A stretch of 35,664 nt of DNA from an uncultured bacterium (GTDB taxonomy: Bacteria; Bacteroidota; Bacteroidia; Bacteroidales; CAIWKO01): the NCBI GenBank assembly GCA_903858655.1, contig CAIOJS010000254.1, positions 1-35,664 on the forward strand, written 5' to 3'. The stretch's first letter is position 1. The number at the start of each line of letters is the position of its first letter. Of this stretch, positions 1-24,810 are shown in pieces. The notes beneath the pieces are model-generated. The model searched no databases. It was not told the origin of the DNA and worked only from the letters and a program-made list of their open reading frames with translations. The position numbers and the translations under genes were made by a program.

Positions 1-774
1 GGCGAACTATATACTTTCCTTACCAATAAGAATGGAAGAGGGAAAAAAGGTACCCTTATTGCCTCAATCAAAGGAACATTATCAAAAGACATTATTGCTG
101 TTTTAGAAAAACTGCTATTATAAGCGTGCGAGCAAGTCAAGGAAGTAACATTAGATATAGCTAAAAACATGGAAGCGGCGGTAAGAACTGTATTCCCAAA
201 TAGTAGTTTGGTTACCGATCGTTTTCATGTTGTAAGATTAGCTATGGAAGCTTTGCAGCATAAGCGAATGGAATGAGCTTGATAAAGAAACCGCAGCTAT
301 AAAAGAAGCAAAAAAACAAGGTAAAATACGAGCCTGTTGTATTGCAGAATGAAGATACTCCCAAACAACTATTAGCTCGATGCAGATACATTTTAGCCAA
401 GAAACCTTTAGACTGGACAGAAAGTCAAAAGCAAAGATCTTCTATTCTTTTCAGAGAATATCCGCAGTTGAAAAAAAGATTATGAGCACACTCTCGAATT
501 CAGAAATATTTATGAACAAATATCCAAGAGTATTGCCCAAGAGATGTTTATCCGTTGGATTAAAAAAACTCATACAATAGAAATAAAAGAGTTCTATACC
601 GTTGCCAATATTGTAAATAATAACATTGACAATATTTTAAATTTCTTTGACAACAGAAATACCAATGCAAATGCCGAATCAATCAATTCTAAAATAAAAC
701 TTTTCAGAGCCAATCAAAGAGGAGTAGTTGATACCAAATTCTTCCTCTTTAGATTTCACAAACTCTTTGCCTAG
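1..774 (+). pseudogene. Decayed ISL3-type transposase (C-terminal part)
   Basis: Stitching the frames gives a continuous stretch that I recognise as the DDE catalytic and C-terminal part of an ISL3-family transposase. Landmarks are VTDRFHVVRLAMEALQ (about 214-258), the segment QLLARCRYILAKKPLDWTE in the middle, and NILNFFDNRNTNANAESIN followed by KLFRANQRGVVDTKFFLFRF near the end. The reading frame is broken at least four times. There is a TAA at 121-123, a shift near 271, a shift near 340-350 (TGA at 350-352 in the abandoned frame) and a shift at the A7 run at 471-477. It cannot make transposase. The N-terminal half lies left of the window. The pieces at 380-580 and 544-774 are fragments of this one gene, not separate genes. 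Confidence 0.85.
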
Positions 775-797
775 TCCCCAAAAAAAACTTGTGAGCC
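1..797 (+). mobile_element. Remnant of an ISL3-type insertion sequence, right end
   Basis: The transposase remnant is followed by a short AT-rich tail ending in TTGTGAGCC at 789-797. ISL3-family ends usually begin with GGCTC, so GAGCC at 793-797 is a plausible outer end. The left end is outside the window, so the inverted repeat and any target duplication cannot be verified. Confidence 0.5.
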
Positions 798-890
798 ATA
801 ATAATTCGTAGTTTCAAATTAAATACCTTAGTATAAAGATATGATTTAGGGGAAAGAAAACCCAAAGTGTTTCTTGTTATACGTAAACAA

Positions 891-931
891 AAAAATCGGG
901 GTTCTAATGTTAAATCAGAACCCCGATTTTT
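891..931. terminator. Bidirectional intrinsic terminator
   Basis: A perfect 15-bp inverted repeat (arms 891-905 and 917-931, core CGGGGTTCT / AGAACCCCG) has an 11-nt loop. It is flanked by A-runs on the left and T-runs on the right, so it can terminate on either strand. It sits 45 bp past the stop of the minus-strand PpiD-like gene, which it most likely serves. Confidence 0.85.
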
Positions 932-975
932 TTAAATACAATCTTTGTAAAAGATCTATTAGAAAAATGGCTAGA

Positions 976-2385
976 TTAATAATAATTAATTCTATTGTCG
1001 GTAATATCTGTTATATCTTTAATAGCTTTAAACACTTCGCTTTCTTGTCTATAATTCGGATTGCCATACACTCTGGAACGGAAAGTGCCAAGTAATTGCA
1101 TTTTTACTATATCAACACTTGTTGAGGTTGCTGGAGCCGTAATACCATTTAATAATACTTGATAAATAGCCATTTTTCCTTTAATCGGATCGGAAAGAAC
1201 ATTGTTTTTCAAAGTAAATATGGCTCCGATGAGTTCGGGTTCGGGTCCGTATTTTGGATAATTACTGGTTGCAAATGTCAATTGGTCAACTGTGTCAACG
1301 GTTGTGTTAAGCTTTTGTGCTAACAGATATATATCCTTTGTTGTGCTTGAAGCCACTTTAACCTTTTGAATAAGTTGTTCCGCTTTCTTATCACGCTTAA
1401 CAAGTGGTTCGATGTACGACTTTACTTGTTCTAAAGTTGCAACACCTTTTTCACGTTTTTCGACTAAAGAGGCAACAACATACTTTCCGTTCTCATCGAA
1501 GACTTGTTCAGAAATCATACCTTTCTCAGTTTTTTCATCAAAAGCCCAACGGATAATATCTCTGGCAGATTCAAGCCCGGGGATAGTATAGTCCATTTCT
1601 TTGACGAATTGAGCAGACCGTTTATTAAGTCCTTTATCTTTTATAGTTTTATTAAATTGTTCGGTTGTTCTATTTGTTCCTGCGAATTCGCTTGCTTTTG
1701 CAAGATATTGGTTGAAAGTCTCACTACTTGCTTTTATATCATGTTTTATGATGGCAACTTTCAATTTCTTTTGCAATTCTTTTTTGTCTGAAACAAAAAG
1801 AATGTGATAACCCATACTGGATTGAACTATCTTAACATCACCAACTTTTGCGTTGAAGGTTGAATCGAAAAAGAATTTATTATTTGCATCCCCATCTCCA
1901 ATCCATCCTAAGAGTCCACCATCTTTTTTAGCTGATGGAAAATCAGATTTTAATTGAGCGATGGTTGCAAAATTCTTTGTATCTGCTTTTACTAAGGCAA
2001 ACAAGCTATCAATTGTTTTCTTTGCTTGTTCTTTGGTGCGTGTGATATTCTGCAAGGGGTTTGGTGCGTCTTTATAGGCAACAAGCAGTTGACTGATTTT
2101 TATGGAATCGGGACGGTCTTGAATTTGAACCAGACGTGCTATCGAATAGGAATTGTCTTCAACAAACGGAGGAATAATGGCACCGACAGGAGATGCAAAA
2201 AGTAGGGAATCGAGTTTACCAGGTAAGTTGCCTTTTTTATAGAAATTACTATCGTAGGGTGCATCACTGTTTAGTTTCATAAAATTATCCACATCTTTGG
2301 TTTCAACTTTTTGGAAATCACCATAGATTCTTTGAACATCTTGTGCAATTTTCGTAAGATCATCTTTTTGATGGAAGTACTTCAA
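976..2385 (-). CDS. ppiD: PpiD-like peptidyl-prolyl isomerase, C-terminal part (downstream of frameshift)
   Basis: This is the parvulin (rotamase) part of a PpiD/SurA-type periplasmic folding factor, which isomerises X-Pro bonds in exported proteins. A parvulin domain lies at about residues 95-210 of this piece, with the typical ISQLLVAY start, DGGLLGWIGDG in the middle and SSMGYHILFVSDKK at the end. A helical SurA/PpiD-like chain follows. The only initiator in the open frame is a TTG at 2385, with no start context of its own. The preceding ORF overlaps by 26 bp in another frame. The junction is a run of five A's (coding strand) near 2365-2372: reading through it with one A fewer joins ...FEVLPSK to DDLTKIAQ without a gap. 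The joined product would be about 705 residues, the size I expect for Bacteroidota PpiD-like proteins. Either the gene is recently broken or the base is a sequencing error. Confidence 0.8.
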   Translation of the reverse strand: MKYFHQKDDLTKIAQDVQRIYGDFQKVETKDVDNFMKLNSDAPYDSNFYKKGNLPGKLDSLLFASPVGAIIPPFVEDNSYSIARLVQIQDRPDSIKISQLLVAYKDAPNPLQNITRTKEQAKKTIDSLFALVKADTKNFATIAQLKSDFPSAKKDGGLLGWIGDGDANNKFFFDSTFNAKVGDVKIVQSSMGYHILFVSDKKELQKKLKVAIIKHDIKASSETFNQYLAKASEFAGTNRTTEQFNKTIKDKGLNKRSAQFVKEMDYTIPGLESARDIIRWAFDEKTEKGMISEQVFDENGKYVVASLVEKREKGVATLEQVKSYIEPLVKRDKKAEQLIQKVKVASSTTKDIYLLAQKLNTTVDTVDQLTFATSNYPKYGPEPELIGAIFTLKNNVLSDPIKGKMAIYQVLLNGITAPATSTSVDIVKMQLLGTFRSRVYGNPNYRQESEVFKAIKDITDITDNRINYY

Positions 2386-3175
2386 AGATTACATAATCCA
2401 AATCACGAGCATTTTCTTGCTTGTATTCGTTTTTATGTTCATCATAAAACTTTTTAAAATCGTCATCACTAACTTTTATAATACTGTCTGAAATGGTTTG
2501 ATATTTCACTCCAATTGAAAGAAGTTTTGCAACTTTGCTCGATTCGTCGGAAGCGCGTTGCAGAAATACTTTGGGCATATAATACCCATGTGTAATAAGT
2601 GAATTATATTTTGTATTAATTCTATCATCTTTAATACCTTGTTCTAAACGTTTCCACTGTTGTTTTTCTTCGTCTTTCATATTGTCGAAGTTCTGAACTA
2701 TTGATTGAATTTTCTGAACGTCAACAGCTCCAGTGTTAGGATCCGCGAAGTTCTGTATAATGAAAGGATGAAGATGTTCACGTTTCCCCATCATCAGGTC
2801 ATACAATTCTTCGGGGCTGATAGAAGCTTTGGTTGCTTTTTCATGGTCAATAGCCAAGCCCAACTCTTCGTATTCTTTTTGCATGATTTGATCTTTAAGC
2901 ATCTGATCCCACGTGGAAGTCATGATTTGAAAGTTTTCGGCAGATGTAAGATTTTCTTTTTTTGCCTGTTGCTTATATGCTGCCACTTGATCTTCTACCT
3001 TTTTATCGAAATCAATTTTGCTAATTTTTTCGCCAGCAATTTTTGCGAAAAGCTGAGTTTTACGACCACCGCCGCTTTTTCTGAATAAATCTTGTAGCAC
3101 AAATCCTCCCAATGCTACGCCAATTAAAATTACAAGTAATGCTGAATGTTTGCGAATTCTACCAATAATAGCCAT
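2360..3175 (-). CDS. ppiD: PpiD-like peptidyl-prolyl isomerase, N-terminal part (upstream of frameshift)
   Basis: This is the N-terminal half of the gene continued in 976-2385. Residues 12-28 (ALLVILIGVALGGFVLQ) form one uncleaved membrane anchor, as in PpiD, leaving the rest in the periplasm. A SurA_N_3-like helical domain follows, with the start LFAKIAGEKISKIDFDKKVE and repeated acidic/lysine helices. The frame ends ...VLPSKR-stop just after the A-run. Without the frameshift it would enter the parvulin domain. The ATG at 3175 is preceded by a good -7 box (3203-3211), so the promoter and start look intact. Translation of this piece alone would give a membrane-anchored chaperone domain lacking the isomerase. 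The symbol rests on architecture (single anchor, SurA-type N-domain, central parvulin), not on orthology. Confidence 0.8.
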   Translation of the reverse strand: MAIIGRIRKHSALLVILIGVALGGFVLQDLFRKSGGGRKTQLFAKIAGEKISKIDFDKKVEDQVAAYKQQAKKENLTSAENFQIMTSTWDQMLKDQIMQKEYEELGLAIDHEKATKASISPEELYDLMMGKREHLHPFIIQNFADPNTGAVDVQKIQSIVQNFDNMKDEEKQQWKRLEQGIKDDRINTKYNSLITHGYYMPKVFLQRASDESSKVAKLLSIGVKYQTISDSIIKVSDDDFKKFYDEHKNEYKQENARDLDYVIFEVLPSKR

Positions 3176-3202
3176 AATTTTGTTGAATTAAAAAATAAGG
3201 GT

Positions 3203-3211
3203 GCAAAAGTA
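3203..3211 (-). promoter_or_regulatory. Bacteroidota-type -7 box for the PpiD-like gene
   Basis: On the minus strand this reads TACTTTTGC, matching the TAnnTTTGY -7 element. It lies 28 bp upstream of the ATG at 3175. No clear -33 TTG box was identified. Confidence 0.5.
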
Positions 3212-3729
3212 AGATAAATATTTGGATCCAGAAAATGTTTTTTTGATTTTTTTAGAAATTAGGTAGTATTTGCCCAAAATAAAAGTGCCATTTTTTGTGT
3301 ATATGAAACAAACCATCATAGGTGTTTTCATAGAAGCATCGCATAAATTTAGAGTATTGAATTAGGTGCTTTTATAATGTTAATCAAGGTATTGTATCAA
3401 GTACGAAGTTGGGGTAAAAAAATTTGGCGATACATAAAAAATTTTCTAATTAAGAAAATAATAAATTTTTATCAGCCCCGTTTCGATACTTGTAATAAAA
3501 ACCCTTTGCGGCGAGGAAAATTACCTATTAGTAATCTGGTGATCATAATGCGCAAAAATGAGATTTAGGAATCAGAAGAAATAATAAGAATAAAACAAGC
3601 AAAAAATAGGAGAAAAATAAAAGGCTAAATCATAACTCAAAAGCCTTATTAACACTCAAAAAGCACAATAAAAAATTTAGCAGCTAAAAAAAGGTTTATG
3701 ATTTTTATCATTATTAGATAAATTTTTTG
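3212..3729. other. Long AT-rich divergent intergenic region
   Basis: About 520 bases separate the divergent promoters of the PpiD-like gene and the glycogen-synthase-like gene. The stretch is strongly AT-rich. It holds only weak structure: a 6-bp stem with a 15-nt loop (AAGGCT 3621-3626, AGCCTT 3642-3647) and a small ATGAT/ATCAT palindrome near 3697-3711. A 63-codon open frame at 3377-3568 has no recognisable features and I do not call it a gene. Confidence 0.5.
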
Positions 3730-3738
3730 TACTTTTGC
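3730..3738 (+). promoter_or_regulatory. Bacteroidota-type -7 box for the 3768-9985 gene run
   Basis: TACTTTTGC matches TAnnTTTGY, 30 bp upstream of the ATG at 3768. It makes an upstream in-frame TTG at 3735, which lies inside the box, untenable as a start codon. Confidence 0.55.
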
Positions 3739-3767
3739 ATAATTCGAATTCAAAACACTTAAAAGAT

Positions 3768-4601
3768 ATGTCAAAATACAAGGTTTTATTTGTTGCTCAG
3801 GAAATGGTTCCCTATATGAGCGACAGTCCTATGGGGAAAATATGCCGCGAACTTCCACAAGGTATTCAAGAAAAATGTCGCGAAATCCGAACTTTCATGC
3901 CACGTTTTGGATGCGTAAACGAAAGGCGCAACCAACTTCATGAAGTCATTCGCTTATCGGGTATGAATTTAGTTATTGATGATAGCGACCATCCATTGAT
4001 AATAAAGGTTGCCTCTATTCAAGCAGCACGTTTGCAAATTTATTTTATTGATAACGAAGATTATTTTTTACGGAAGGCTGTTTTTGCCGACAAAGAAGGC
4101 GAATTTTTTGCCGACAACGATGAACGCGCTATTTTCTATGCTCGAGGCGTTATCGAAACCATAAAAAAACTCGGATGGTCTCCTGATGTGATACATATTC
4201 ATGGTTGGTTTTCGAGTTTGGTACCATTTTTTATCCGTACGATTTTTAAAGACAACCCATTGTTTACCGATACAAAAATCGTATGCTCACTCTATGACGA
4301 TGATTTCAATCATGTTTTTAGCAGTAGTTTCCTAAAAAAACTCAGACATGAAGGCGTGGACGAAAAAGATTTAAAACAATATAAAGCCTCAGATTACGTT
4401 GGTATAATGAAAGGTGCCATTGATTTTTCTGATGCAATAATTATTGGTGCTGAAAACGTAAATCCAGAACTACTTTCTTATGCAAAAAAATCGAATAAGC
4501 GCATTCTTGAAATGCAACCAATGGAAAACTTCATTGATGCTTATAGCGTATTCTATGATGAGTTGGTAGATGAACTGGTTAACGAAGATGCTATACAATA
4601 A
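3768..4601 (+). CDS. Half-length glycogen/starch-synthase-like protein (GT5 N-terminal domain only)
   Basis: The protein is 277 residues with the start at MSKYKVLFVAQE. It resembles only the N-terminal Rossmann half of GT5 glycogen synthases: a first strand KVLFVAQEMVPY, then EIRTFMPRFG (the VRVVMPRYG position), then DVIHIHGWFSSLVPFFI (the position of the acceptor-binding DVVHAHDW motif). The C-terminal GT-B domain that binds most of the nucleotide sugar is absent. The N-terminal KxGGL loop, which contacts ADP-glucose, is replaced by SDSPMGKICREL. I recognise this short form as a Bacteroidota-specific family commonly annotated 'glycogen synthase' and found near DUF4270 genes. Glycogen synthesis by this protein alone is unlikely. 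A regulatory or sugar-sensing role is possible but not shown. It starts a co-directional run: 15 bp to the DUF4270 gene and then glmS. Confidence 0.75.
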   Translation: MSKYKVLFVAQEMVPYMSDSPMGKICRELPQGIQEKCREIRTFMPRFGCVNERRNQLHEVIRLSGMNLVIDDSDHPLIIKVASIQAARLQIYFIDNEDYFLRKAVFADKEGEFFADNDERAIFYARGVIETIKKLGWSPDVIHIHGWFSSLVPFFIRTIFKDNPLFTDTKIVCSLYDDDFNHVFSSSFLKKLRHEGVDEKDLKQYKASDYVGIMKGAIDFSDAIIIGAENVNPELLSYAKKSNKRILEMQPMENFIDAYSVFYDELVDELVNEDAIQ

Positions 4602-10584: not shown

Positions 10585-11559
10585 TTAATCTTTTATACAT
10601 CTTACAGACAAACCAACATTATTACCATATTTTTTAAAACTAATACCATCACTAATTGAAAACAAGGAAATACAGGAGCTATGTGCTACATTGGTACCTG
10701 AATTCACCCACCAATAACCATAATAACCACTATAAATAAATTGGTCTCCATAACTCCTCAAACCAAAAGCTCTTGCAGTGAAACCGCTGCGATTATCTCC
10801 GGGAAGAGGTCCCGGGGGATAATAATAAGACCAATATGATGTAGATTTTAGTTTTTTACCCGAAACCAAGTTGCCACCTAAAAAATCACTTAATTTCTTC
10901 CATTCGATACTATCAGGCACATGCCAGCCTACAGGTGTAATTTTTCTAGCGTCTATGACGGCATAATAGTTATAGTACTTTATATAATCGTAAATAGGAT
11001 CATTGAGCAATATACAATAAGCTCCCGAAGTAGTGCTTTCCCATGCCAGGCTATCCATCAAGTTAGGGATTTCGCTATTATCTCTATACTTAGTAGTTTT
11101 AAGATTTTCGAGCATCCAAACCTGCTCGCCTATATGAAGCATGTGATACACATTGCCCACAATATCCGAAACGGTATCGGTTTCATCAGGAGGTGTAGAA
11201 AAGAAAAAAGTCTTTCCATAAAAAACACCTTCCGTGGTGGAATAATACGCCCGAATCAAATAGGTTGTTCCCGAGTTCAATCCGCTTATTTGACTTGTAA
11301 ACTCCCCAATAGTGGAACCATCAGACGTTTTATCGTCCGAAATACTTGGTACATGGAGGTTATTCCAACATACACCACGTTCCAAAATGTCCACAGTTCC
11401 ATCTGCCAAAATTTCACCACCACAGGTAGCAGCGTGTGTTGTGATATTTGAAATATCTGATGAAAATATGAACACACACTTTGCTTTCTTTTCGCATGAT
11501 GTTGTTATTATGAAAAGAATAGCGAGTAACGAACCTATTCTTATACGCTTGATTCTCAT
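10585..11559 (-). CDS. FISUMP-domain lipoprotein with Fn3-like N-terminal domain
   Basis: The protein is 324 residues. A signal peptide ends in the lipobox ITTSC, with Cys22 as the lipid anchor. Residues 35-128 are an Fn3/Ig-like domain of the Bacteroidota type (THAATCGGEI, ERGVCW, GLNSGTTYLIRAY, YGKTFFFST). Residues 133-324 are a FISUMP (Fibrobacter succinogenes major paralogous) domain: GNVYHMLHIGEQVWMLENLK, GWHVPDSIEWKKLSDFLGG, DNRSGFTARAFGLR, YYGYWWVNSGT and the closing VGLSVRCIKD. FISUMP domains adopt a C-lectin-like fold in related families, but ligands are unknown. Its ATG overlaps the stop of the outer-membrane-type gene by 4 bp (ATGA), so the two are translationally coupled and may form a surface pair. 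Confidence 0.88.
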   Translation of the reverse strand: MRIKRIRIGSLLAILFIITTSCEKKAKCVFIFSSDISNITTHAATCGGEILADGTVDILERGVCWNNLHVPSISDDKTSDGSTIGEFTSQISGLNSGTTYLIRAYYSTTEGVFYGKTFFFSTPPDETDTVSDIVGNVYHMLHIGEQVWMLENLKTTKYRDNSEIPNLMDSLAWESTTSGAYCILLNDPIYDYIKYYNYYAVIDARKITPVGWHVPDSIEWKKLSDFLGGNLVSGKKLKSTSYWSYYYPPGPLPGDNRSGFTARAFGLRSYGDQFIYSGYYGYWWVNSGTNVAHSSCISLFSISDGISFKKYGNNVGLSVRCIKD

Positions 11560-18405: not shown

Positions 18406-18413
18406 TAATTTTG
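18406..18413 (+). promoter_or_regulatory. -7 box for the first PCMD-like gene
   Basis: TAATTTTG followed by C matches TAnnTTTGY, 34 bp upstream of the ATG at 18448. It starts the 18.4-24.8 kb surface-protein cluster. Confidence 0.5.
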
Positions 18414-18447: not shown

Positions 18448-20274
18448 ATGAAAAAACTCACTCTTTCAATCATTTGTTTGTTGGTTTTTGCTGCAGGAGC
18501 GGCGAAAGCGCAACAAGTTCTTAATTCAAACTTCGAAGCTTGGGACAACTTAGGTTCCGCTACCGAGGAACCCACTAATTGGAATTCTTTTAAAACTGGT
18601 ACAGGAACTTTGATTTCTTTTACTTCGCAACAATTAAAACGTTCGACACTAAAAAGACCGGGGTCTTCAGGAACATATAGTGCTGTTATTTGGGCAAAGT
18701 CAGTGCTTACTACTCTTGCCAATGGCAATTTTACAACAGGGCAAGTTAACGCCAATAGTGGTACACCTACCGATCCCTCTAATTTTAATGCAACCGTAAT
18801 TACTGATCCATTATTTAGAGCCCCATTAACTGTACGTCCGGACTCATTAATCGTATGGATAAAATTTAAGCCTGCAGGAACAGGTGCTGATTCTGCACGT
18901 GTCAGTGCCATCATTCATGATAATTATGCGATGCATGATCCGGCAGATGCTGGCTCTGCATCCCATCTGGTTGGGAAAGCAATAAAAAACTTTGCAAAAA
19001 CCAATGGTGCATGGATACGCAAAAGTATTCCATTTACATATCCTGGACCTGCGACTAATCAACAGTATATTTTAATAACTTTTACAACGAATAAAACCCC
19101 GGGCTCAGGCACAGCAGGTGATAGTTTGTATGTGGATGATTTGGAATTATTCTATAACCCAGTATTGACAACAGGCACCATGAGCACCACTACCTATTAT
19201 GTTTCTTCCACACAAGGAACAGCTATAAGTGTTCCGTTCACCTTGACGGGAAATATGGTAACAGGCAATCATGTTACAGCACAATTATCGGACCCTACAG
19301 GTTCATTTGCCACTTATACTAATATTGGTAATTTAACCACAACCACTTCGGGAACCATTCCAGGAACTATTCCAGCAGGCATACCAACGGGCAGTGGTTA
19401 TCGTGTTAGAGTCATTACTGACAACTATCCATTGACGGCAGCCGACAATGGCACCAACCTTCAAATTTATTTGGCATCAAACGCTGTTACTTCAGCAGCA
19501 ACACAAACTATAGAAGCCGGCACCAATGGAACTGTTTTGACAAACTCAGAAGTAGGTGTTGCCACCTCACGCGAGTGGAAGTATGCTACGGCTATTGCCG
19601 GTCCTTACGTTTCCTTTTCTCCTGTAGAAACAGGCGCTACTTTGACACCTACGTTTGGAACGTATGGAACCTGGTATATTAACTGCACATCAAACTTCCC
19701 CAACAGTATCACCACCACTTCAAATCAAGTGCAGATAGATGTTGTGGACAATCAAATTGCCCCTTCATCAATGCAGAATATTGACATGAATGTCAACGGA
19801 ACAGATGTGTTGGTGACCGAATATCCTGTAGGAACTTCACGCGAATGGTTGTATGCAACAGCTTCGGGCGGTCCTTATAATTCTTTTTCACCGATGGAAA
19901 CGGCAACAAATTATACGCCTTTGTTTACTACAGCCGGAACCTATTATGTGATTTGTCATAGTCAAATCAGCGGCATCCCCGTGACTTCCTCAGAAGTGAT
20001 GATTGTTGTTACGGATGTTACCGGAATTCGAACGTATCAAAATGAAAACTATTCGGTATATTTTTTCGACAACCAACTTAATGTTGATTTGAAATCATCA
20101 AGCTTGAATAATCCTACAATACAAGTTTACAATATCAACGGACAATTGGTAGGTAATTTTACCTTGAAGAACCATACTCTTAATAGTATCGCAATCCATA
20201 TCTCTGCAGGTTTGTATATGTTCCGCATTTCGGATGTTGATACAATAGAAACGGGTAAGATTATCAAACCGTAA
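18448..20274 (+). CDS. Exported PCMD-like protein with Ig-like repeats and T9SS sorting domain
   Basis: The protein is 608 residues. A signal peptide ends at AKA/QQ (cleavage near 21). Residues 22-235 form a beta-sandwich that looks like the PCMD (putative carbohydrate metabolism domain) family, with NSNFEAWDNLG at the start, RPDSLIVWIKFKPAG, DSARVSAIIHD, and GDSLYVDDLELFY at the end. A second all-beta stretch covers about 240-350. Two repeats of about 85 residues follow (about 350-520), each with a SREWKYA/SREWLYA core, GPYxSFSP and GTWYINC/GTYYVIC. The last 80 residues (YSVYFFDNQLNVDL, QVYNINGQLVG, GLYMFRI) are a type A T9SS sorting domain, so the protein is secreted across the outer membrane. 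Its N-terminal domain is about 70% identical by eye to the next gene. Ligand unknown. Confidence 0.78.
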   Translation: MKKLTLSIICLLVFAAGAAKAQQVLNSNFEAWDNLGSATEEPTNWNSFKTGTGTLISFTSQQLKRSTLKRPGSSGTYSAVIWAKSVLTTLANGNFTTGQVNANSGTPTDPSNFNATVITDPLFRAPLTVRPDSLIVWIKFKPAGTGADSARVSAIIHDNYAMHDPADAGSASHLVGKAIKNFAKTNGAWIRKSIPFTYPGPATNQQYILITFTTNKTPGSGTAGDSLYVDDLELFYNPVLTTGTMSTTTYYVSSTQGTAISVPFTLTGNMVTGNHVTAQLSDPTGSFATYTNIGNLTTTTSGTIPGTIPAGIPTGSGYRVRVITDNYPLTAADNGTNLQIYLASNAVTSAATQTIEAGTNGTVLTNSEVGVATSREWKYATAIAGPYVSFSPVETGATLTPTFGTYGTWYINCTSNFPNSITTTSNQVQIDVVDNQIAPSSMQNIDMNVNGTDVLVTEYPVGTSREWLYATASGGPYNSFSPMETATNYTPLFTTAGTYYVICHSQISGIPVTSSEVMIVVTDVTGIRTYQNENYSVYFFDNQLNVDLKSSSLNNPTIQVYNINGQLVGNFTLKNHTLNSIAIHISAGLYMFRISDVDTIETGKIIKP

Positions 20275-20282
20275 ATCTGTTG

Positions 20283-20310
20283 ATTGGGAACATTGAAATA
20301 TGTTTCCAAT
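20283..20310 (+). terminator. Hairpin after the first PCMD-like gene
   Basis: An 11-bp stem (20283-20293 with 20300-20310, one G-U pair) with a 6-nt loop lies 9 bp after the stop codon. There is no strong T-run after it, so it may be a weak terminator or an mRNA 3' stabiliser. The remaining 300 bp to the next gene show only a promoter box. Confidence 0.4.
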
Positions 20311-20518
20311 AATAAATTAGTTGGGAATTACTTCCGGAAGGAGTTTCCAAATATATGTTTTGAAGGAAGTAACGAGAAACATTTTTTTGTTTGGATGAAC
20401 AATGGCAAGGTAATATTTTATTGTCACTATTGAGTAATAAACGGTATTATCAGCCCTGTTTGAAATCATGGCATAATTATTGAAACAAAAAATAATCCTC
20501 AATATCTAAGTTTTTATG

Positions 20519-20526
20519 TACCTTTG
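20519..20526 (+). promoter_or_regulatory. -7 box for the second PCMD-like gene
   Basis: TACCTTTG matches TAnnTTTG. It ends at the GTG that would open an upstream-extended frame, so the downstream ATG at 20607 is the likely start, leaving a leader of roughly 75 nucleotides. Confidence 0.5.
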
Positions 20527-20606
20527 TGAAAATCTATATACCCACAAAGCTTAAGTTCAAATATGGATTAAGATACGAACATTATTATTTACTTAAAACT
20601 AATTCA

Positions 20607-21596
20607 ATGAAAAAACTATTTACGTTAGCTATTATTTTTATATTTGTTGCTGCCACAGGGGTTATTAAGGCGCAACAAGTCAACAATTCAGGATTTGAAA
20701 CCTGGGACAACTTAGGTGCAGCCACCGAAGAGCCTACCGATTGGAATTCGTTTAAAACAGGCACAGGAAGCTTAATTTCATTCACCTCGCAACAAATAAA
20801 ACGTTCAACTGTTGTTAGACCCGGTTCAGCAGGAACCTACAGTTGTGTTATATGGTCAAAGATGGCACCTATTGGCGGTATTCTTGCCAATGGTAATTTT
20901 ACTACCGGACAAGTTAATGCCAACAGTGTTACACCTACTGACCCTACCAATTTTAATGCAACGGTTATAACCGACCCTGCTTTCAGCGAAGCATTGACCG
21001 GACATCCCGATTCATTAGTGGTTTGGGTGAAATTTAAACCTGCCGGCGCAGGTGCCGATTCTGCTCGTGTAAATGCATTTATCCATGATTCATATAATAT
21101 GAAAGACCCGGCTGATGTTGCTGCTGCTGCACATCTTGTGGGCGTAGCTGTTGAAAATTTTCCTTCAACCAATGGACAATGGTCACGTTTGAGCATACCT
21201 TTTGCTTATCCCGGACCTGCAGTGACTCCTGCCTTTATATTAATTTCATTTACCACCAATAAAACTCCAGGCAATGGAACAGCAGCTGATAGTCTTTATG
21301 TGGACGATTTATCCTTAATTTATAATTCCGGAGGTATTCCAACGGTGAATAAACCTCAGAAGTATAATGTTTATACCGATGCCAACGATTTAATCATACA
21401 AGCATCTTTCCAGAAGCCGGTGAAATCTGAGATATGCATTTATAACATCAACGGACAATTGATATATAAAAATCAGGTTAATTCCGCTTTGGTGAGCGAA
21501 CATGTCACATTGAATTCAATGAATAAAGGCATGTACATAGTAACTATTACTAACGAAGCCGGAGATATGTTTAGCCAGAAAATTACCATCAATTAA
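20607..21596 (+). CDS. Exported PCMD-like protein with T9SS sorting domain
   Basis: The protein is 329 residues from the ATG at 20607, where a signal peptide begins (MKKLFTLAIIFIF, cleavage near VIKA/QQ at 22). Residues 23-245 match the N-terminal domain of the preceding gene across their whole length (NSGFETWDNLGAATEEPTDW, HPDSLVVWVKFKPAGAGADS, FTTNKTPGNGTAADSLYVDD). The Ig-like repeats are missing. The C-terminal 75 residues (KYNVYTDANDLIIQASF, EICIYNINGQLIYKN, GMYIVTITNEAGDMFSQKI) are a T9SS type A sorting domain. This is evidently a tandem duplicate, one copy having gained or lost internal domains. The role is probably extracellular ligand binding; no catalytic motif is visible. Confidence 0.78.
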   Translation: MKKLFTLAIIFIFVAATGVIKAQQVNNSGFETWDNLGAATEEPTDWNSFKTGTGSLISFTSQQIKRSTVVRPGSAGTYSCVIWSKMAPIGGILANGNFTTGQVNANSVTPTDPTNFNATVITDPAFSEALTGHPDSLVVWVKFKPAGAGADSARVNAFIHDSYNMKDPADVAAAAHLVGVAVENFPSTNGQWSRLSIPFAYPGPAVTPAFILISFTTNKTPGNGTAADSLYVDDLSLIYNSGGIPTVNKPQKYNVYTDANDLIIQASFQKPVKSEICIYNINGQLIYKNQVNSALVSEHVTLNSMNKGMYIVTITNEAGDMFSQKITIN

Positions 21597-21605
21597 TATT
21601 TTTGT

Positions 21606-21613
21606 TAGTTTTG
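21606..21613 (+). promoter_or_regulatory. -7 box for the TonB-dependent receptor gene
   Basis: TAGTTTTG followed by C matches TAnnTTTGY, 31-38 bp upstream of the ATG at 21644. It suggests the receptor has its own promoter even though it lies only 47 bp behind the second PCMD-like gene. Confidence 0.5.
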
Positions 21614-21643
21614 CAGATTATTGTTGAATTTAATAAACCGAAA

Positions 21644-24040
21644 ATGACAAATTGTTATAAGACGCTTTGCATTACAACCCTTTTTATTGTGGCAGGATTC
21701 TTTGCTCCTGCTACACTTCTTTCCCAAAATGTTGTGGTGAAAGGTAAAGTAACAGAATTTGAATCGGGCAATGCTGTTCCATTCGTTAATATTGGAATTA
21801 AAGATCAGCACAAAGGAACCACCTGCGACCTGTATGGGATGTACGACCTATTATTAGAACCTGGCGAATATACTATATTGTATTCCTCTATTGGATATGA
21901 GAAATTGTCGAAAACAATCACTGTTAAAGCTGGCAAACCTGTGACGCTTGATGTAGTGATGAAACTTTTGGTTACGGAATTAAACATGACGGTTGTTTCC
22001 GGTTCCAAATACGAACAAAAACTGGAAGATGCTACCAATTCAGTGGATATCTTACGCCCTTCGATGTTAGAAACAAAGAATGTGCTGACCTTGGACAAAG
22101 CTATTGAATCTGTTCCCGGAGTTGCTATTGTTGATAACGAACCACAAATTAGAGGCGGTAGTGGTTTTAGTTCCGGTTTGGGAAGTCGGGTGATGATATT
22201 GATAGATGAAATTCCTATTATGAGCCCTGATGCTGGTCGTCCGGTTTGGAACTTTTTGCCTGTGGAAGATGTGGAACAAATTGAAGTCGTGAAAGGGGCT
22301 TCATCGGTCATGTATGGTTCGGCAGCTTTGAATGGCGCTATCAATATACGCACAGCCTATCCAAAGGAAAAAACCATGACGAAAGTCACGATGACAAGTG
22401 GTATTTACAGCACACCACCGAAACGCTACACCAAATCATGGGATGGTTTTAATCCGATTATACTCGGAGCTAGTTTTATACATTCGCAACGAGTCAATAA
22501 CTTTGATTTTGTGTTGGGTGGCAACTTTTTATCCGACCCGGGATATATTGGTGCACCACCTGATAGTGCAGGTAAGGGTGCATTTGATAAGAATTTCCGC
22601 GTCAATTTTGGCACACGTGTTCGTTCAATTAAAGTGGATGGACTGACTTATGGGTTGAACGGCAATTTCATGTACTCAAAAAACACACAAGCATATTTTT
22701 GGAAAGATGCCGATTCAAATATTTATAGAGCTTATCCCGGTGCTATCACAAATTTCAACGAGTTTCAAATGTATGTTGACCCTTATGTGAAATATTTTGG
22801 ACCCAAAGGCGCTTCACATTCGTTGAAAAACAGATTTTATTATGCCAACAATGGTGCCAGCAACGATCAGCAAACCATGTCCTATTCAGTTTACGATGAA
22901 TATCAATTTTCAAAAGTATTTAAGAAACTTGGAAACTTGGTTATCAATGCAGGCATCATGAATAATTACTCCTATTCGTTTGGAAAAGTATTTTCAGGGG
23001 TTTCCGGTCATAATGGTTCCAAATCATCAGATAATTTGGCGGTGTATGTGCAATCGGAAAAGAAATTCTTCAATTGGCTTACGGTTTCGGCTGGAGCACG
23101 TTGGGAATATTATCACTTGGGCGATTACACCGATAGCAAACCTATTTTCAGAGCTGGTTTGAACATGCGTGCCTCGAAAGGAACTTATGTGCGCGCTTCC
23201 TTTGGTCAAGGATTTAGGTTTCCTTCTATTGGTGAACGCTATATTTCGACTTATTCCGGAAATTTTGGAATTTATCCTAACCCTGATTTGAAATCTGAAA
23301 CCAGTTGGAACACTGAATTAGGCATTAAGCAATTGTTTAAAATCAAGAACTTTGTTGGCTTTGTGGATGTATGCGGATTTTTACAGCAATACAAAAACTT
23401 TATTGAATTCACTGCCGCTTTGTGGGGCAGAAATTTGTTGCCCGATAGTTCAGGATATGATTTCAAAAAGAACCTAGGCTATAAATTCTTGAATACTTCT
23501 GATGCCCGCGTTTGGGGAATAGATTGTGCTTTGATGGGCGAAGGCAAGTTTACCAAAAACTTCTCGATGACCATCATGGCAGGCTATACGTTCTCCAGAC
23601 CTACATGTTTAGACCCCAACAATGTGTATTATACCGACACCGTTCTGAATAAAGATTTCACCTACGCCAGTACTTCATCGGATACACGAAAAAACATCTT
23701 GAAATATCGCTTTGAGCAACTTGGAAAACTTGATGTGGATTTCAAATACAAGAGCGTTTCGCTTGGGTTTAGCGGTAAATATTATGGCTTCATGTATAAT
23801 ATCGACAAATTCTTTTTGGAGAACGACCGCCCGGGCTTTTTTGCTACCGGCATAAAAGAATATCGAAAAGATCATCATAATGGAGATTATGTGCTTGACA
23901 CACGAGTGAGTTATGAATTGAAAAAACATTTCAAATTCTCGGTTCTGATTAATAATTTATTAAATAACGAATATTCTTTGCGTCCCATTTATGTTCAACC
24001 ACCTCGGGTTACTTCGATTCAAATTGTTTATAAAGTTTAG
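21644..24040 (+). CDS. TonB-dependent outer-membrane receptor
   Basis: The protein is 798 residues from the ATG at 21644 (MTNCYKTLCITT), giving a signal peptide ending near LLSQ. Residues 30-115 form a carboxypeptidase-regulatory-like (CarboxypepD_reg-like) domain: VVVKGKVTEFESGNAVPFVN, GMYDLLLEPGEYTILYSSIGY. The plug domain follows (about 125-240), with ESVPGVAIVDNEPQIRGGSG, VMILIDEIP and VEQIEVVKGASSVMYGSAAL, and then a 22-strand-type barrel. FGQGFRFPSIGERYIST and NPDLKSETSWNTELGIK are typical barrel motifs, and the C-terminus is PPRVTSIQIVYKV. It drives energy-dependent uptake using TonB/ExbBD. It has the size of a siderophore/cobalamin-type receptor, smaller than SusC (about 1000 residues), and no SusD gene is nearby. 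The PCMD-like lipoprotein follows 5 bp after its stop. Confidence 0.93.
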   Translation: MTNCYKTLCITTLFIVAGFFAPATLLSQNVVVKGKVTEFESGNAVPFVNIGIKDQHKGTTCDLYGMYDLLLEPGEYTILYSSIGYEKLSKTITVKAGKPVTLDVVMKLLVTELNMTVVSGSKYEQKLEDATNSVDILRPSMLETKNVLTLDKAIESVPGVAIVDNEPQIRGGSGFSSGLGSRVMILIDEIPIMSPDAGRPVWNFLPVEDVEQIEVVKGASSVMYGSAALNGAINIRTAYPKEKTMTKVTMTSGIYSTPPKRYTKSWDGFNPIILGASFIHSQRVNNFDFVLGGNFLSDPGYIGAPPDSAGKGAFDKNFRVNFGTRVRSIKVDGLTYGLNGNFMYSKNTQAYFWKDADSNIYRAYPGAITNFNEFQMYVDPYVKYFGPKGASHSLKNRFYYANNGASNDQQTMSYSVYDEYQFSKVFKKLGNLVINAGIMNNYSYSFGKVFSGVSGHNGSKSSDNLAVYVQSEKKFFNWLTVSAGARWEYYHLGDYTDSKPIFRAGLNMRASKGTYVRASFGQGFRFPSIGERYISTYSGNFGIYPNPDLKSETSWNTELGIKQLFKIKNFVGFVDVCGFLQQYKNFIEFTAALWGRNLLPDSSGYDFKKNLGYKFLNTSDARVWGIDCALMGEGKFTKNFSMTIMAGYTFSRPTCLDPNNVYYTDTVLNKDFTYASTSSDTRKNILKYRFEQLGKLDVDFKYKSVSLGFSGKYYGFMYNIDKFFLENDRPGFFATGIKEYRKDHHNGDYVLDTRVSYELKKHFKFSVLINNLLNNEYSLRPIYVQPPRVTSIQIVYKV

Positions 24041-24045
24041 TTACC

Positions 24046-24810
24046 ATGAAAAAAAAATATTATTTTTCTTTCCTTTTCTTATTGGTTTCAAGCATTAGTT
24101 TGACCTTCTTTGCTTCTTGCAGAAAATATATTGACGACACCCCTGTGGTGAAAACTCCCGATGAGTTACTCTGTCAATCCAATATCACCGGCGGTTGTTT
24201 CGACCAGTGGGTTTCTATTGATGACGGATATGGTTTGATTTGCATGGAACCTGCCGGGGGGTATTTAAGAACACTCAACTATTTAACCACCTTACCTAGT
24301 TCCATCGGTGGTCCCGGACCATTAACAACTGACAGTTCGCGCGATTCTCATTCAGGAACGTATGCTGCGTTGCTGATTACAGGTACGTTTAGCCCTCAAG
24401 GCTCTCCGCTTATCATACCGGGATTGGTTGGGACAGATTCGCTTGATATTCCAAATGCTACCATCCACTTAGGAAAACGATTTACAGCCCGTCCGGATAG
24501 TTTGCAAGGATGGTACAAATATGTTCCCGTGGGCGGCGATTCGGCTATGGTTTCGGTGTTGCTTTCCAAATATAATGTAGCTGCTCAAAAAAGAGATACG
24601 ATAGGTTTGTTGCGCCAAATATATCATAACACGGTCTATAACTATACCTTTATTGATTTGCCCATCACCTATTATTCAGGCGAAACCCCAGATAGTCTTA
24701 CTTTACTGTTTTGCGCAAGTGCAGGAGTCAATTTTGTGGATTTGTTGTCATGCAAAGGACAAGTGGGAAGCCGTATGTGGATAGACGAAATTTCGTTTGT
24801 GATGCCTTAA
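24046..24810 (+). CDS. PCMD-like lipoprotein
   Basis: The protein is 254 residues with a lipoprotein signal (lipobox FFASC, Cys25). The mature part resembles the two upstream exported proteins: KRFTARPDSLQGWYKYVPVG corresponds to their RPDSLIVWIKFKPAG, GDSAMVSVLLSKYN to GADSARVSAIIHD, PDSLTLLFCAS to their YILITFTT, and SRMWIDEISFVMP to their SLYVDDLELFY. It is therefore a third PCMD-like domain, here held to the membrane. It starts 5 bp after the receptor stop, so it is co-transcribed and probably works with it. By position it could take the place of a SusD-like surface partner of the receptor. That is an inference; whether it faces outward is not shown. Confidence 0.78.
   Translation: MKKKYYFSFLFLLVSSISLTFFASCRKYIDDTPVVKTPDELLCQSNITGGCFDQWVSIDDGYGLICMEPAGGYLRTLNYLTTLPSSIGGPGPLTTDSSRDSHSGTYAALLITGTFSPQGSPLIIPGLVGTDSLDIPNATIHLGKRFTARPDSLQGWYKYVPVGGDSAMVSVLLSKYNVAAQKRDTIGLLRQIYHNTVYNYTFIDLPITYYSGETPDSLTLLFCASAGVNFVDLLSCKGQVGSRMWIDEISFVMP

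Follow-up and report, generated by a model that had tools for sequence, protein, structure and literature searches.

The question raised by the cluster described here is how, and by what, a TonB-dependent receptor encoded without a SusD might be assisted in capturing its ligand; the partners known so far for TonB receptors in Bacteroidota are lipoproteins of the SusD type or with a beta-propeller fold. The cluster consists of four consecutive plus-strand genes, S1, S2, TBDR and LIPO, which fill positions 18448-24810 of the window (the whole 35,664-nucleotide stretch of DNA that was analysed; Table 1), just as the first-pass annotation, made from the sequence alone, had delimited them, with LIPO starting 5 bases past the TBDR stop codon, a housekeeping comM/chlI-like ATPase gene flanking the cluster on one side and pfkA on the other. 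Around the cluster the full Bacteroidota promoter consensus does not occur, and -7 boxes by themselves are too common to be informative (57 found versus 43 expected), those at 18406, 20519 and 21606 being suggestive only.

Table 1. Predicted features of the receptor cluster, and one gene elsewhere in the window.
Feature	Window positions	Strand	Length	Description
S1	18448..20274	+	608 aa	Signal peptide, PCMD-like domain (~residues 20-238), repeat spacer, T9SS type A sorting tail
S1 repeats	19483-20022			S1 residues 346-525; pair of ~90-residue repeats in the spacer that separates the PCMD domain from the sorting tail
S2	20607..21596	+	329 aa (counted from ATG)	Signal peptide, PCMD-like domain, T9SS type A sorting tail
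TBDR	21644..24040	+	798 aa	TonB-dependent receptor; CarbopepD_reg_2, Plug and beta-barrel
LIPO	24046..24810	+	254 aa	PCMD lipoprotein; lipobox FAS-C25
FISUMP	10585-11559	-		FISUMP domain protein (TIGR02145)

At its C-terminus, each of S1 and S2 scores above the cut-off of 23 bits for the T9SS type A sorting domain (TIGR04183; 34.7 bits for S1, 35.5 for S2), and the genome from which the window comes encodes SprA, so that the T9SS machinery is present; sorting domain and machinery together identify both proteins as predicted type A cargos, in agreement with the two T9SS-exported products that had been proposed. As T9SS cargos are known to be either surface-anchored or released (PMC5445135), both states are possible for S1 and S2, which share 72% identity across 240 residues in their PCMD part; the repeats of S1 have no Pfam match. 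From its lipobox cysteine onwards, LIPO reads CRKYIDD, with a lysine at +3 and an acidic pair at +6/+7, which fits the published Bacteroidota lipoprotein export signal, C-X-K-(D/E)2 (PMC5080379), only if shifted, and because the match is only partial LIPO is best described as putatively surface-exposed.

TBDR is recognizable as a TonB-dependent receptor by its plug and beta-barrel domains (PF07715, 71 bits, and PF00593, TonB_dep_Rec, 104 bits), to which a CarbopepD_reg_2 domain is added. With 28.5 bits against the SusC signature TIGR04057 (cut-off 46.2), it falls, by that signature, outside the SusC/RagA subfamily, and no SusD family member (PF14322, PF07980) was found at the locus or in the 81%-complete genome, which bears out the claimed absence of SusD. 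Conserved metal-ligand residues were considered as well and dismissed, as no cysteine/histidine set stands out in the receptor.

The other three proteins had been said to belong to one domain family, and so they do, with a correction to the motifs cited: DSA and the closing W/Y-x-D-D/E are as described, whereas S2 reads HPDSL instead of RPDSL. LIPO scores 29.9 bits against PCMD (PF13201), just above the curated cut-off of 28, and S1 and S2, taken singly, give no PF13201 match in Pfam; they are joined to the domain through profiles and through the predicted fold of S2. The S1/S2-family and LIPO-family profiles align to one another with 98.5% probability (hhalign, E 3.8e-15), both match the solved PCMD proteins 3hbz, 3s30 and 4het, and the AlphaFold2 models of LIPO and S2 (pLDDT 86.0 and 85.6) share the domain fold of the solved Bacteroides PCMD proteins (3hbz, which is BT_2081, 3s30, 4jrl and 4het), at Z 19-20 for LIPO and 18-19 for S2. 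No published function of PF13201 proteins, or link of theirs to a receptor, was found in the literature searched, which took in subscription journals to a small extent only.

Whether this domain goes with the receptor in general was the test set beforehand by the first-pass annotation, and the linkage turned out to be conserved in many lineages. The sample comprised 80 public loci plus the window (81), the contigs having been searched with a receptor alignment only and the sample thus being free of selection for PCMD genes, which were identified afterwards by gene calling and iterated PCMD profiles. In 62 of the 81 loci the receptor gene has a PCMD gene directly beside it on the same strand, and PCMD genes occupy 68 of the 152 adjacent slots versus 4 of the 594 slots two or more genes away (Fisher p 2.5e-48, a value that overstates independence, as the loci are related), these four including duplicates of S and LIPO as well as a single split receptor. 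In the receptor phylogeny, the clade of TBDR itself has a linked PCMD gene in 42/42 cases, downstream in all, and its sister clade in 22/24, upstream, while the outlying clades (33-43% identical) have no PCMD neighbour at all. Linkage for all related receptors is thereby ruled out, as a paralog of TBDR in the same genome (G000:C292:6274-8658, locus L175), a 35% identical, distant member of the wider family, also has no PCMD neighbour; PCMD is, by the same token, not required by receptors of the wider family. When lineages are defined as receptors less than 60% identical to each other (n=20), the linkage is kept through about 20 of them amid unrelated housekeeping surroundings, which makes the receptor and PCMD pair a conserved unit, and a conserved third gene that might betray the ligand can be rejected, since none recurs near the receptor in more than 3 of the 20 lineages. 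In a phylum survey at a strict threshold, the receptor was present in 4 of 198 genomes and is, consequently, uncommon among the mostly complete genomes drawn.

The PCMD tree splits as the receptor tree does: downstream PCMDs, LIPO included, form one group (support 99), upstream ones, S1 and S2 included, group mostly together, and pairwise distances correlate (r 0.89 and 0.88), as they would through vertical descent alone too. Since the PCMD clade of LIPO follows the receptor clade, LIPO is, judging by the trees, the co-inherited partner of its receptor, and to that extent the proposal that the lipoprotein acts as the receptor's partner stands; a lipoprotein is, however, not what most relatives have in this position. 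Among 45 relatives, the partner in the LIPO position carries a T9SS tail in 34 and a lipobox in 11, with at least four changes on the tree, so that the usual partner is a T9SS cargo, lipid anchoring being a derived, repeatedly acquired state. The alternation of T9SS tail and lipobox fits a need for surface placement. Replacement of the T9SS tail by a lipid anchor following T9SS loss was also considered and is rejected, SprA being encoded in 12 of the 12 genomes tested, lipoprotein-bearing ones included. In the closest relative (L035:1-1616, G001), two LIPO copies stand in tandem.

S1 and S2, in turn, fall within the PCMD lineage whose members are the only partners of the receptors in the sister clade, which makes the locus a composite one and means that they may just as well be second receptor partners as free collectors of the ligand. 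The fixed division of roles that had been suggested, with a lipoprotein by the receptor and secreted copies collecting outside, is not sustained, given the switching of anchors. The S1/S2 duplication is recent and common to the window and one close relative, and the upstream PCMDs of two other loci (L073 and L076) are placed elsewhere in the PCMD tree, whose deep branches are weakly supported, suggesting repeated gains of an additional PCMD gene upstream.

Taken together, the shared domain and fold, the dedicated and conserved pairing, the matching trees and the anchor switch form the basis of a model that we hold to be probable, though by no means assured: a PCMD jelly-roll protein assists the TonB receptor at the cell surface in SusD-free nutrient capture. 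The PCMD surface protein, dedicated to its receptor, would bind a scarce ligand outside the cell, make contact with the receptor and hand the ligand over as BtuG does to BtuB or XusB to XusA, upon which the receptor would import it using energy presumably supplied through TonB. LIPO, as the ancestral partner, would sit lipid-anchored beside the receptor, probably exposed at the surface, and S1 and S2, exported by T9SS and derived from the PCMD lineage that partners the sister clade, would supply a second layer of binding, at the surface or secreted.

Non-SusD lipoprotein lids have solved precedents in BtuBG and XusAB (PMC10404256, PMC13142918). The Bacteroides cobamide system BtuB-BtuG(-BtuH/BtuJ) (PMC10404256, PMC12751083) likewise encodes a TonB receptor with a non-SusD surface lipoprotein and has, in some loci, extra jelly-roll proteins (B12-binding ones in that case), but BtuG is a beta-propeller and BtuH/BtuJ belong to other families, whereas the protein found here is a PCMD one and often a T9SS cargo. 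The xenosiderophore system XusA-XusB (PMC13142918) resembles the present one in receptor size, in the CarbopepD-type N-terminal part, in lacking SusD and in having a lipoprotein partner (the lid in Xus); XusB, however, is a seven-bladed beta-propeller (DUF4374), and the Xus locus includes the PepSY protein XusC, of which the cluster has no membrane counterpart. With the SusC-SusD glycan transporters it shares a (putatively surface) lipoprotein gene adjoining the TonB receptor gene, but neither the SusC signature nor SusD.

What the ligand might be is where the competing explanations diverge. The nearest folds to the LIPO and S2 models after PCMD itself are CBM16, a porphyran-binding CBM and other carbohydrate-binding modules (Z 12-13), which, along with the Pfam name of PCMD referring to carbohydrate metabolism, would agree with CBM-like surface glycan-binding proteins feeding oligosaccharides to the receptor, Sus-like but without SusD. 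We regard such glycan uptake as unlikely: the receptor is not a SusC, the lack of any conserved third gene over the 20 lineages extends to glycosidases and lyases, and a jelly-roll fold alone is no proof of sugar binding, the DUF4465 jelly-roll being one that binds vitamin B12 (PMC13398666). Iron or heme uptake, by a siderophore or heme receptor that a PCMD binder would serve after the fashion of XusAB or HmuRY, is a shade less doubtful, if still rather unlikely. XusA (9gbc) is the best solved match to TBDR, over residues 30-258, and the heme, hemoglobin and catecholate receptor models are the ones scoring highest below threshold; all these matches, however, involve mostly the plug, common to all such receptors. 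Heme receptors have a histidine between the FRFP and NPDL barrel motifs, which the barrel of TBDR lacks, and iron genes, PepSY reductases among them, do not recur alongside the receptor.

Cobamide uptake is a further candidate, with PCMD functionally akin to the BtuH/BtuJ jelly-rolls and the receptor an analogue of BtuB, and here the positive signs are a TonB-B12 match of TBDR (105 bits, far under the cut-off of 599.7), the DUF4465 structure 4jqr among the weak Foldseek matches (rank 38) and the location of about 40% of the larger-cluster DUF4465 genes near TonB barrels (PMC13398666). Against these stand the lack of a DUF4465 Pfam match at the locus, which still leaves room for kinship in fold, the failure of BtuG-type and ABC genes to recur near the receptor and the absence of the riboswitch control seen in the Btu system, as Rfam detected no cobalamin riboswitch or other regulatory RNA in the window and, in nine related loci, only an SRP RNA and a tRNA; cobamide uptake is, in our view, very improbable. 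Nearly as improbable is a role of the PCMD proteins as adhesins or in a surface layer, their genes adjoining the receptor only through shared regulation or descent: repeat spacers such as those of S1 are typical of surface proteins, and orphan PCMD proteins with T9SS tails and no receptor alongside are common in the relatives, yet such a reading does not sit well with a linkage that, with no third gene, is retained in about 20 lineages whose housekeeping surroundings are unrelated, nor with PCMD being found on either side of the receptor in different clades with matching trees.

On the model of PCMD-assisted capture, then, the CBM-like fold points towards a sugar-bearing ligand, and the non-SusC receptor and the lack of conserved degradative genes towards a small micronutrient. 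A soluble micronutrient type is weakly favoured over a polysaccharide, since the surroundings of the pair hold no conserved third gene of any sort, degradative enzymes among them.

If a PCMD jelly-roll, often T9SS-exported, fills the partner role, T9SS would feed nutrient receptors directly, and the PCMD family, with four solved structures and no function known so far, would acquire a testable one. The broader notion that these pairs represent a widespread, hitherto undescribed class of TonB uptake, its dedicated partner being a CBM-like PCMD jelly-roll whose T9SS and lipid anchors interchange in evolution, is a tentative one, to which we would give somewhat less than an even chance; if borne out, it would supply the first case of a TonB receptor family normally served, for lid or hand-over, by a T9SS cargo. 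The receptor-PCMD pairs themselves, carried by some environmental Bacteroidota, amount to a clean natural experiment, the same position being filled by a T9SS-anchored or a lipid-anchored protein depending on the lineage.

Two further arrangements were seen in the course of the comparison. At L039:8963-10474 and L040:8490-9900, lipoprotein PCMDs of the LIPO clade are followed by a protein of about 250 residues that resembles an outer-membrane beta-barrel, with no receptor, and L060 (G015:C358, positions 78-4120) has, in this order, a TonB receptor other than the present one (28% identity across 227 aa), a T9SS PCMD protein and a lipoprotein that, by eye, resembles the MbnP family.
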